Below the pieces are notes generated by a model that was not told the DNA's origin, did no database searches, and worked only from the letters and a program-made list of their open reading frames with translations. From Deltaproteobacteria bacterium (lineage in GTDB: Bacteria > Desulfobacterota > Desulfuromonadia > Geobacterales > Pseudopelobacteraceae), in the NCBI GenBank assembly GCA_021781535.1, contig JAJXWO010000017.1, forward strand, positions 1 through 64,000: a stretch of 64,000 nt of DNA, read 5' to 3'. The position numbers and the translations under genes were made by a program. Shown here in pieces: positions 3,774 to 57,758 of the stretch (within the stretch, counting starts at the first letter, position 1; the number at the start of each line of letters is the position of its first letter).

Positions 3774-4537
3774 GATGATTTACCTCCATCGGCCATTGTA
3801 TCAGCTTTCACAGAGTTGTTTCCACAATACTTTTTCCCGATCAATCCCGGTTCAGCCAGCAGCAGTCTGTTTTTCGGAGTAATATCCTCCGGGATCAACT
3901 GAGTAAATACCCTGTACCCCTGAGAACGCAACCGGGACACCCTGGCTGCATCCATTGCCAGAGGACCATCCATCCACCCCTGAAGGCCACCGAGGTCGGC
4001 ATCCTTCAGGTTATGACAACAGGGCAATACGGCAACGACAGCCCCGGCTTCAACCGCCTTGTCGAGAATTACATCGGTGAGGCTGCCGCAAGCATGAGCA
4101 GAGACGACAATGTCATGGTGATGCAGCTCCACGTTACAAATATCAGTTTCAACAAACTGGATGCGATCCCTTAAACGCGGCCAACCGGTTTTCAAGGATG
4201 TTGCGAGAGTTGCAGCACTCTTGGGAATACGCCGATCCACGGCCAGAGCCACTGGGGAACTGTCATCCAGCAACAAAAGGATCTGAGCCAGCAGTCCATG
4301 ACCACATGCTAGATCGACAATCCGCCCACCTCTGAAACGGCGACGCACCCGGCGAGCAACCTCCCACGCTTCGTACAACTCCTTGCGCGGCAGGCAGCCG
4401 GCATGGCAGACCGCCCGGGCAATGGCATCAAACAGGGTGTCTCCGCAAAATTTGTGGAGATCTTTTTCGGTAAGCCGGTTGCGTGACGAGCGGTCCAAGG
4501 AGCTAACGGATTCCTGTTCAGGGTTTGATGTATGCAT
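3770..4537 (-). CDS. SAM-dependent methyltransferase-like protein
   Basis: 255 aa; IVDLACGHGLLAQILLLLDD motif I and SAHACGSLTD. Confidence 0.75.
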   Translation of the reverse strand: MHTSNPEQESVSSLDRSSRNRLTEKDLHKFCGDTLFDAIARAVCHAGCLPRKELYEAWEVARRVRRRFRGGRIVDLACGHGLLAQILLLLDDSSPVALAVDRRIPKSAATLATSLKTGWPRLRDRIQFVETDICNVELHHHDIVVSAHACGSLTDVILDKAVEAGAVVAVLPCCHNLKDADLGGLQGWMDGPLAMDAARVSRLRSQGYRVFTQLIPEDITPKNRLLLAEPGLIGKKYCGNNSVKADTMADGGKSS

Positions 4538-5228
4538 TTAATCCTATGGTGATCGGTTTTCCGTCCACTTCGGCGGTGGTAATATATTTGTCTTGAGCTG
4601 TTTCACTTTTGCGGGCGCATGTCACCGGATATTCGACGCCGCTGTTTATGGCGATTATGGTTTTGCTCAACTCTTCATACACCCCTTCGATATTCCGTTT
4701 CACATCGTTATTGCTGAAACGGACCACCCGCAATCCGAGCGAGCCGAGAAACCTCGTTCGTTCTGCGTCATACTCTGCTGTTTCGGCGTGGCTGTCGCCG
4801 TCGATCTCGATTACCAGCTGCAGTCCGGCGCAATAAAAATCTACGATATAACCACCAACAGGTTTTTGCCGCAGGAATTTATAGTCGGCAAACTGCCGCA
4901 TCCGCAGTACTTTCTGCCAGATTCGGTTTTCGGCGACCGTTGGGTTGTTACGATTTTCACGGGCGAGAGCGGTGAGGTTTTTGTTGTAGGGGAGGTAGGC
5001 GGAGTTTAAGGAAGGCGCTGACCCGGAGTCAGAAGGCAACCCCTCCCCGGCCCTCCCCTTATCAAGGGAGGGGGACAAGCTATGGCTTCCCCCCTGATAA
5101 GGGGGGATTGAGGGGGGTTGGTTTTGACTCAAGCTTTGTTCTCCGTGAAAATACTCATATGACATTTTTACCGGACTAACTGCGCCCGCCCGCATAAATG
5201 CTGATACATGCTCCTCCAACCAGCACAA
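4518..5228 (-). CDS. DUF559 (Vsr-like endonuclease fold) protein, N-terminus read through a G-rich repeat
   Basis: Core LPYNKNLTALARENRNNPTVAENRIWQKVLRMRQFADYKFLRQKPVGGYIVDFYCAGLQLVIEIDGDSHAE...GLRVVRFSNNDV; the true start is probably well downstream of 5228. Confidence 0.8.
   Translation of the reverse strand: MCWLEEHVSAFMRAGAVSPVKMSYEYFHGEQSLSQNQPPSIPPYQGGSHSLSPSLDKGRAGEGLPSDSGSAPSLNSAYLPYNKNLTALARENRNNPTVAENRIWQKVLRMRQFADYKFLRQKPVGGYIVDFYCAGLQLVIEIDGDSHAETAEYDAERTRFLGSLGLRVVRFSNNDVKRNIEGVYEELSKTIIAINSGVEYPVTCARKSETAQDKYITTAEVDGKPITIGLNAYIKP
5036..5122. repeat. G/C-run palindromic repeat (CCCCCCTCAATCCCCCCTTATC..GATAAGGGGAGGG type)
   Basis: Two hairpins arranged as an overall inverted repeat: (minus strand) aaccaacccccctcaatccccccttatcaggggggaag...cttgtccccctcccttgataaggggagggccggggaggggtt. 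Confidence 0.75.
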
Positions 5229-55286: not shown

Positions 55287-55333
55287 AAGAAGTGGAAAAC
55301 GTTTCAGTAGATAATGAAGGTAAAGCTTGAAAG

Positions 55334-55415
55334 ACAAATCCCCCCCGACTCCCCTTTGCAAAAGTGGGGTGAAAAACAAGTCCCCCTTTTTGAAGGGGGA
55401 TTTAGGGGGATTTGC
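55334..55415. repeat. G/C-run palindromic repeat upstream of DUF559
   Basis: aaatcccccccgactcccctttgcaaaagtggggtgaaaaacaagtccccctttttgaagggggatttagggggattt. Confidence 0.8.
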
Positions 55416-56521
55416 TTTTAGAAGGAGCTGACATGATCGAATACAGTCGCAACCTGAAACCGCCGTCTCGTGAGCTTCGCAAAAATATGACCGAGGCCGA
55501 ACGGGTGCTATGGTCACGGCTGCGCGGAAAACAACTGCTCGATGTCCAGTTTTACCGCCAGAAGCCTCTTGGCCCTTTTATTGCCGATTTCTACTGCCAC
55601 GCTTGCGCGTTGGTTATTGAGGTCGATGGGGGACAGCATTATGAAGCTGAACATGCCAAGAGAGATGTGGAGCGGGATAAATACCTTGCAGCAGTTGGAT
55701 TACAGGTCGTGCGTTTCAATAATGTGCAGGTTCTTCAGGAGACGGATGCTGTGGTTGAGGAGATATTGAAGGTGATGCATGAAAGGCAAATCCCCCCTTG
55801 CCCCCCTTTAAAAAGTGGGGTAAAGGCGAATTCAAAGTCCGCCATCAGCATGGAGAATTCAGAGATTGATGTGATTTTAAAGTCCCCCTTCAGTAAGGGT
55901 GATTTAGGGGAAGTTGCTTTCGATCCAATCCCCATCTCCGCTCTGGAGCACTATGTCTACTGTCCGCGCCAGTGCGCCCTGATTCACGTCGAGCGGGTGT
56001 GGGATGAAAACCTGTACACCATGCGGGGCAGGGATGTGCATGAACATGTGCATGACGACTCGTCCCATGAATTGGCGGGGGTGCGAATGGAACGTTCCCT
56101 GCCGATCTGGTCACGTCGGTTGAGTTTAACCGGCAAGGCCGATCTGGTCGAGTTTCACAGTGATTGCCCCTATCCGGTGGAGTACAAGTCGGGACGGCAC
56201 CGCAAGGGGAATCCGGAGTCCATTCAACTTTGCGCCCAGGCGCTAAGTCTGGAGGAGATGTTTGCTGTTTCCGTACCGAAAGGGGCCATCTTTTGGCACG
56301 GCTCGCAGGAGCGCCGCGAGATTGAATTCACCGATGCCATGCGTCAACAGGTGGAAGAAGTGGCTGCTGCCGTGGGTGATATGCTGGAAAGGCGCATCGT
56401 GCCGCCGCCGGTGAACGACAAGCGGTGTGAAGGGTGTTCTCTGAAAGAATCCTGTATGCCCGCCGTGATCGCTGACAAGGGGCGCTGCCGACGGGCGGCG
56501 CGGGAGTTGTTTGCAATTTGA
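55412..56521 (+). CDS. in-frame DUF559 endonuclease-Cas4 nuclease fusion
   Basis: DUF559 core (LRKNMTEAERVLWSRLRGKQLLDVQFYRQKPLGPFIADFYCHACALVIEVDGGQHYE) joined through repeat-encoded peptide to Cas4 (PISALEHYVYCPRQCALIHVERVW...VEYKSGRHRKGN...CEGCSLKESC). Confidence 0.85.
   Translation: MLLEGADMIEYSRNLKPPSRELRKNMTEAERVLWSRLRGKQLLDVQFYRQKPLGPFIADFYCHACALVIEVDGGQHYEAEHAKRDVERDKYLAAVGLQVVRFNNVQVLQETDAVVEEILKVMHERQIPPCPPLKSGVKANSKSAISMENSEIDVILKSPFSKGDLGEVAFDPIPISALEHYVYCPRQCALIHVERVWDENLYTMRGRDVHEHVHDDSSHELAGVRMERSLPIWSRRLSLTGKADLVEFHSDCPYPVEYKSGRHRKGNPESIQLCAQALSLEEMFAVSVPKGAIFWHGSQERREIEFTDAMRQQVEEVAAAVGDMLERRIVPPPVNDKRCEGCSLKESCMPAVIADKGRCRRAARELFAI
55786..55920. repeat. split G/C-run repeat at the DUF559-Cas4 junction
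   Basis: Half units caaatccccccttgccccccttta..aaagtgggg and aaagtcccccttcagtaagggtgatttaggggaa either side of about 50 bp. Confidence 0.7.
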
Positions 56522-56531
56522 GGAGGTGAAA

Positions 56532-56774
56532 ATGGAGAAGAAGTTGGTGGTGTTTCAGAACAAAGAAATACGTCGAACACTTCACGATGGTGAATGGTCG
56601 TTCTCGATTACAGATGTGATCGGGGTGCTGGTTGAGAGTTCTATTCCTCGTCGCTACTGGAGTGACCTGAAGCGAAAGCTTACCAATGAAGGCTACAACG
56701 AGTTGTACGAAAAAATCGTACAACTGAAATTGCCTTCAACTGATGGGATTTCTCCATGTGCCTCGCCCCGGTAG
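56532..56774 (+). pseudogene. Bro-N/prophage antirepressor-like N-terminal fragment
   Basis: MEKKLVVFQNKEIRRTLHDGEWSFSITDVIGVLVESSIPRRYWSDLKRKLTNEGYNELYEKIVQLKLPSTDG, then joins cas1-derived DNA. Confidence 0.7.
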
Positions 56775-57087
56775 ACCGTCGCTTGGGCTTGATCTTATGG
56801 AGGAGTTTCGTGCTTTCCTGGCCGACCGGTTGGCTATCACGCTCATCAACCGCAAGCAGGTGACGATTGAACATTTCGAGCCGCGTCCCGGCGGCGCGGT
56901 CTATCTGAATGAAAAAGGGCGCAAAGAGGTGGTGGCGGCATGGCAGAAGCGCAAGCAGGAAGAGGCGGATCATCCACTGCTGGCTGAAAAGTCTCCGATC
57001 GGCCTGTTGCCTCATCTTCAGGCTCGCTTGCTGGCGCGGCATCTGCGCGGTGATCTGGAAAGTTATGTTCAGTATATACATCCGTAA
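56743..57087 (+). pseudogene. cas1: truncated Cas1 (C-terminal third only)
   Basis: GFLHVPRPGRPSLGLDLMEEFRAFLADRLAITLINRKQVTIEHFEPRPGGAVYLNEKGRKEVVAAWQKRK. Confidence 0.88.
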
Positions 57088-57089
57088 AA

Positions 57090-57184
57090 TGAAATCCCCC
57101 TAAATCCCCCTAAATCCCCCTTCAAAAAGGGGGACTTCTAGACTCCTCCCTTTACAAAGTGGGGGGGGCGGGGGGATTTCCTTT
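57090..57184. repeat. G/C-run palindromic repeat between cas1 remnant and cas2
   Basis: aaatccccctaaatccccctaaatcccccttcaaaaagggggacttctagactcctccctttacaaagtggggggggcggggggattt. Confidence 0.8.
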
Positions 57185-57204
57185 TCAGATTATGAGGTAT
57201 CTGT

Positions 57205-57670: not shown

Positions 57671-57707
57671 GAGCGCCCGTCCTAGCTGGACGGGCGAGGA
57701 TTGAAAT
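57671..57707 (+). CRISPR. single (orphan) CRISPR repeat
   Basis: GAGCGCCCGTCCTAGCTGGACGGGCGAGGATTGAAAT: internal palindrome and ATTGAAA[C/T] end; no second copy seen. Confidence 0.7.
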
Positions 57708-57758
57708 ACTGCAAATTCTCGGGCAGTGCAGTGGTCGGGCCTCATGAGGGGCGGATCA

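Follow-up and report, generated by a model that had tools for sequence, protein, structure and literature searches.

Does a small nuclease gene of the DUF559 family, found beside C-run/G-run palindromes, form with them a mobile unit? The question is raised by a stretch of 64,000 nucleotides (the window), which belongs to a 3.8-Mb draft assembly of 133 contigs with 8.9% contamination, probably Geobacter-like to judge by its genes. The first-pass annotation had proposed that DUF559 genes and such repeats occur together at two places, and this is borne out: both genes belong to PF04480, and the repeats are denser than chance would allow, with the pattern AAATCCCCCN{0,12}CCCC occurring 11 times in the window where 0.05 occurrences are expected. 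The features concerned are these:

55303-55333, plus strand: copy of the 3' end of the DUF559 gene, abutting the upstream repeat and resembling 55755-55785 (direct repeat)
55334-55418, no strand: upstream two-hairpin repeat unit (sequence and repeat search)
55433-55792, plus strand: DUF559 (YcjD-like, Vsr-fold) nuclease gene (PF04480, E 4e-34)
55783-55920, no strand: downstream repeat unit (sequence and repeat search)
55914-56521, plus strand: cas4 (PF01930, E 2.5e-24)
57088-57185, no strand: solitary gene-less repeat unit between the cas1 remnant and cas2 (pattern search and sequence)
4659-4979, minus strand: second DUF559 (cluster 4), the domain portion of ORF 4518-5228 (PF04480, E 8e-34)
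about 5037-5127, no strand: repeat unit 5' of the second DUF559, of sequence type CCCCCTCAATCCCCCCTTATCA, which differs from that of the first locus

At the first locus a repeat lies on either side of the gene, as had been claimed. The upstream unit is made up of an L half (CAAATCCCCC..CCCC-loop-GGGG) and an R half (CCCCC-loop-GGGGGATTTAGGGGGATTT), with the R half facing the gene and the pattern AAGGGGGATTTAGGGGGATT found at 55393. The gene starts with an ATG at 55433, preceded by a good ribosome-binding site (AGAAGGAG at 55420), and its 3' end is overlapped by the downstream unit, in which an L half (CAAATCCCCCCTTGCCCCCCTTTAAAAAGTGGGG) lies toward DUF559 and is followed by the R half at 55878-55920. 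DUF559, the downstream repeat and Cas4 are read as a single in-frame ORF of 369 amino acids (55412-56521) with the repeat as the linker; the usual start of cas4 is lost, and translation enters it in frame via DUF559 and the repeat. The repeat search also matched 55303-55362 to 55755-55814, with 78% identity over 60 nt, about 30 nt of which are coding.

The second DUF559 protein is 46% identical to the first and has a repeat on its 5' side only, which is partly translated as an N-terminal extension. The genome holds two DUF559 genes, both in the window, and solitary units of the type seen at 5 kb are present at four other places in it, three of which were read in sequence, with a related unit on its contig C83; the solitary units in L127, L129 and C53 are of the 5-kb type. 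Together with the solitary unit at 57088-57185, the fusion of the ORF to Cas4 and the 3'-end copy, these counts go beyond what the first-pass annotation had described. An Rfam scan of the window gave zero matches.

The surroundings of the solitary unit are themselves unusual. In place of the N-terminal two thirds of cas1 there is (56511-57087) a fragment that by eye is Bro-N-like (MEKKLVVFQNKEIRRTLHDGEWSF...) and that has no match in Pfam or NCBIfam; a similar fragment precedes cas4 in L142. The adaptation module of the window looks broken, because just the C-terminus of cas1 is left. After cas2, at about 57672-57708, there is one CRISPR-repeat-like sequence (GCCCGTCCTAGCTGGACGGGCGAGGATTGAAAT) without an array.

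The association was examined in DUF559 loci from 60 genomes of the family to which the window belongs, with up to 8 kb of flank on each side. Within 150 bp of DUF559, upstream and downstream alike, runs of at least five C or G occur at 22 per kb, and at a distance of 2-8 kb they occur at 2.4 per kb. Enrichment of repeats near DUF559 had been set beforehand as a check, and it was found: a C4+/G4+ hairpin lies within 220 bp of 74 of the 83 DUF559 genes, compared with 74 of 498 control ORFs (Fisher p=2e-41, kinship between genomes being ignored). Size-matched ORFs have one in 25 of 192 cases, and taking one DUF559 locus per genome leaves 34 of 40. In 49 of the 83 loci the hairpin is on both sides. 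Nine loci lack the hairpin. In two of them (L073 and L085) the DUF559 domain is part of a long intein-like (HINT-like) frame that no repeats flank, where the nuclease apparently serves homing; most of the others have a palindrome of another sequence type.

The repeats are also arranged in a fixed way around the gene. The half-repeat nearest the gene on its 5' side is R (C-block, G-block, G-block), seen as CGG/GGG in 50 of 56 loci, and that nearest on the 3' side is its reverse complement L (C, C, G), seen as CCG/CCC in 49 of 54; these counts include the truncated forms GGG and CCC, and the background of orientations is balanced. Gene-less units run L then R, gene-bearing ones R-gene-L. When the upstream flank is compared with the reverse-complemented downstream flank, the flanks of the same gene score 26.3, mismatched flanks 13.8 and control intervals 10.2, the best permutation mean being 16.4. 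The similarity of the repeats follows the identity of the DUF559 proteins (Mantel r=0.68, reached by 0/1000 permutations, kinship ignored), the relation showing a step near 60% amino-acid identity. Part of this correlation has to reflect the shared ancestry of orthologous loci, which is still included in r.

If the gene and the repeats belong together, the number of gene-less copies in a genome is of interest. The motif CCCCCTNNNNCCCCC alone was tried as a genome-wide counter and gave 10 in the window's own genome against 12 for the reversed control; being unenriched, so loose a motif is invalid for this purpose. Tighter patterns, for which the reversed controls are near zero, were used to count the cognate repeats of three DUF559 clusters in all genomes of the family, excluding copies within 1 kb of any DUF559. 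Solitary repeats numbered 8.3 in genomes with the cognate gene and 1.8 in those without (p=6e-5) for one cluster, 5.8 and 1.3 (p=8e-4) for the second and 4.2 and 0.7 (p=0.002) for the third, kinship being ignored in all three comparisons, and every one of the three repeat types is at its maximum in genomes holding its own DUF559 cluster. Many genomes of the family hold repeats without the cognate DUF559, so that either gene loss or another mobiliser is required; such genomes are, as expected, compatible with loss of DUF559.

Presence/absence polymorphism had likewise been set beforehand as a check and was found at three sites: cas4, cas1-cas2 and a DNA methyltransferase gene. At cas4, three of the 21 orthologs (the window, G027 and G028) carry a repeat-DUF559-repeat unit at or inside the first cas4 codons. 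The insertion is absent from the other 18, of which 17 are empty as read from the upstream sequence and the last, G014, was scored as empty because its frame of 206 amino acids has no room for it. The Cas4 of one empty genome (G061) is 90% identical to that of the window, and those of the two other occupied genomes are 88% and 77% identical. Between cas1 and cas2, the solitary unit is present in the window, G027 and G022, degenerate in G068 and missing from six relatives.

The methyltransferase ORF of G015 contains a repeat-DUF559-repeat unit in frame. At this site seven orthologs run on without interruption, and hence are empty, and eight have other inserts, mostly palindromic. In L158, L161 and L163 this spot is taken, likewise in frame, by palindromes of another family (CTTCGACTCCGCTCAG...CTGAGCGGAGTCGAAG). 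Since the site accepts other types of palindrome, it may simply be permissive. Further gene-less units are found in frame at two more places. Both the gene-bearing and the gene-less form have inserted in unrelated genes. Where units have inserted in frame, a few bases of the host seem to have been replaced, which is not what classical transposition does; target-site duplications are not definable at the occupied and empty sites, because genomes that differ at species level are too divergent.

The arrangement extends beyond the family. Across phyla, inverted pairing exceeded the 95th percentile of the controls in 26 of 30 DUF559 loci, and inspection revealed palindromes beside DUF559 in Azospirillum, Synechocystis, Pseudanabaena, Picosynechococcus, Deinococcus, Neisseria, Sinorhizobium and E. 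coli. Most full-length DUF559 matches in viral contigs have palindromes beside them too; carriage by phages was considered and set aside, as DUF559 is present in only 2 of 50,697 phage records.

The DUF559 gene of E. coli is ycjD, present in 3,370 of 5,426 genomes. The repeat just 3' of ycjD in K-12 is identical in every letter to TMECO no. 9 in an earlier study (PMC4666352), that is, a BoxC element. A BLAST search over all E. coli placed BoxC at a median of 19 places per genome (range 2-35). E. coli was considered as a clean empty-site test and set aside, because ycjD is an alternative to the eef operon (PMC12817139): strains negative for ycjD carry eefRABCD between sapF and fabI. In K-12 a nearly perfect, unrelated palindrome (CACCTCATTCTGACAAAAGATTAAATCTTGTCAGAATGAGGTG) lies directly 5' of ycjD (L208, 1612-1657), and an incomplete duplicate of the gene's 3' end is found downstream of it beside a degenerate palindrome (L208, 2051-2088), comparable to the copy upstream of the first DUF559 in the window. 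A coarse scan for such copies beside DUF559 loci found 0 of 87 at a threshold so strict that the copy in the window was itself missed, so the feature is known from the window and K-12 only.

The two window proteins score 117 and 116 bits against the PF04480 cut-off of 20.6, which places both in the family. All catalytic residues are conserved: E22, D51, E62, D64, H68, D77 and R80 show no variation across 32 sequences that include both. The AF2 model of the first DUF559 has a pLDDT of 89, and the structures closest to it are NGO0050 (3hrl, E 9e-36) and the catalytic domain of the homing endonuclease I-Bth0305I (3r3p), with Vsr further down; an earlier profile study had grouped YcjD with Vsr (PMC1189080). 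The only Pfam domains in ORF 55412-56521 are DUF559/PD-(D/E)XK-type and Cas4, with no transposase domain in the unit. A role in defence was also considered and set aside, the PADLOC matches (DpdF, mREase_II) being only weak.

Among the known systems closest to this one is REP/REPIN-RAYT (TnpA-REP), where one gene lies between inverted palindromes, gene-less copies are many and repeat and protein co-diverge. The initial analogy with it is strengthened here by the inverted pairing, the fixed orientation, the co-divergence of protein and repeat and the larger number of solitary copies where the cognate gene is present. A flanked gene and dispersed gene-less copies were found, as in REP/RAYT, whereas a Y1 HUH partner was not: RAYT is an IS200-like Y1 HUH transposase, and DUF559 is a PD-(D/E)XK Vsr-like nuclease that lacks any HUH/Y1 domain. 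The repeats differ too, REPs being GTAG/CGTC-tagged and those of DUF559 being C/G-block palindromes. Rickettsia palindromic elements resemble the present repeats in lying in frame in protein genes, though their sequence differs, and we know of no nuclease partner for them. Papers on Geobacter genomes report palindromic families in multiple copies, of which one is inserted in genes without a frameshift, with no mention of a nuclease.

Knowledge of BoxC/PIT repeats goes back to the 1990s. In the sequence of their blocks (C-block, G-block, G-block, often as inverted pairs) the DUF559 repeats are like BoxC/PIT and the intrastrand triplex elements (TMECO), whose consensus is CCCTCNCCCN3-6GGGNGAGGGN3GGGNGAGGG; the repeats of the window and of other lineages share this layout but not the exact consensus. 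The E. coli BoxC-type motif forms a stable intrastrand triplex in vitro and is linked to raised local sequence variation, and its contexts never showed mobility-providing activities in the 5,246 genomes and plasmids surveyed in 2015 (PMC4666352). BoxC/TMECO was described without an associated mobility gene (PMC4666352), whereas here DUF559/YcjD is linked to one layout in many sequence types. A link of DUF559/YcjD to triplex repeats was not found in the literature searched, which left out most subscription journals.

It seems probable, then, that DUF559 and its flanking palindromes are a minimal single-gene mobile system of the REP/RAYT kind run by a PD-(D/E)XK nuclease. Pairing, orientation, co-divergence, the dose relation between gene and solitary copies and presence/absence polymorphism are all observed; we infer that DUF559 binds or cuts the repeats and thereby drives their spread, and likewise how targets are chosen and copies made. 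Of the proposed pairing of nuclease and repeat, it is thus the association that is established, and action of the nuclease itself on the repeats remains conjectural. Such a unit would be bounded by an R half-repeat 5' of DUF559 and its reverse complement L on the 3' side. The nuclease, of 110 amino acids with a Vsr/I-Bth0305I-like PD-(D/E)XK fold, would most likely recognise the repeat family that belongs to it, probably folded into a hairpin or triplex, and would introduce a cut or nick at these repeats or at some target. During repair of this break, new sites could then receive a copy of either the unit with the gene or the L+R units that lack it, as is thought for RAYT/TnpA-REP. A broader proposal, which we hold to be about evenly balanced, is that DUF559/YcjD single-domain nucleases are dedicated mobilisers of the C/G-block palindromes (BoxC/PIT/triplex), a large class that crosses phyla, probably by hairpin or triplex cutting and repair, with no known transposase needed and with the gene-less units as the non-autonomous form.

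The main rival to a mobile system is that DUF559 is a free-standing, homing-type nuclease that parasitises pre-existing palindromes, cleaving near or in them and spreading by repair, the gene-less repeats not being mobilised. Its nearest characterised relative is indeed a homing endonuclease, two DUF559 domains of the family sit in intein-like proteins without repeats, and repeats persist where the cognate DUF559 is absent. The likeness to the EDxHD/Vsr-fold enzyme I-Bth0305I is structural, in fold and core residues; unlike I-Bth0305I, the DUF559 genes here were not seen in introns, are bounded by palindromes rather than by a homing site and have many dispersed gene-less copies. Insertion of the gene inside an L-R unit predicts L-gene-R, whereas the order seen is R-gene-L, outside a solitary unit. 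Gene-less copies being most numerous in genomes with the cognate gene, and the insertion of both forms in unrelated genes, also speak against it, and we regard homing of this sort as rather unlikely.

Two readings in which DUF559 moves nothing fare worse. The repeats might be host terminators or extragenic palindromes and DUF559 a hairpin- or triplex-processing nuclease useful to the host, nearby by chance or for regulation. The stability of BoxC-type triplexes in vitro and the association of the motifs with raised local variation in E. coli (PMC4666352) would suit this, as would the retention of ycjD in so many E. coli genomes, but the arrangement is lacking at size-matched genes, in-frame insertion in coding genes and patchy presence would be unexpected, and the inverted pairing and co-divergence are left unexplained, making it an improbable account. 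MITEs need a transposase in trans, and single-gene units with terminal inverted repeats resemble them; gene and repeats could therefore have been moved jointly by an unrelated recombinase or transposase encoded elsewhere, with DUF559 as a passenger. This MITE-like look is set against the same passenger occurring with a matching repeat type across phyla, in a unit without room for another gene, and against the repeat type following the DUF559 subgroup, so that a passenger role appears highly improbable.

A dedicated mobile system would give DUF559, a widespread 'domain of unknown function' family, a likely role, and makes it the first concrete enzyme candidate for the spread of BoxC/intrastrand-triplex elements. 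The link between DUF559 and BoxC makes the long-standing question of how these repeats spread testable at the bench, as the gene is carried by ordinary E. coli K-12 (ycjD). If the proposal is true, it would represent a second, independent solution of the REP/RAYT type that relies on another nuclease fold, and proteins would gain in-frame insertions from it.
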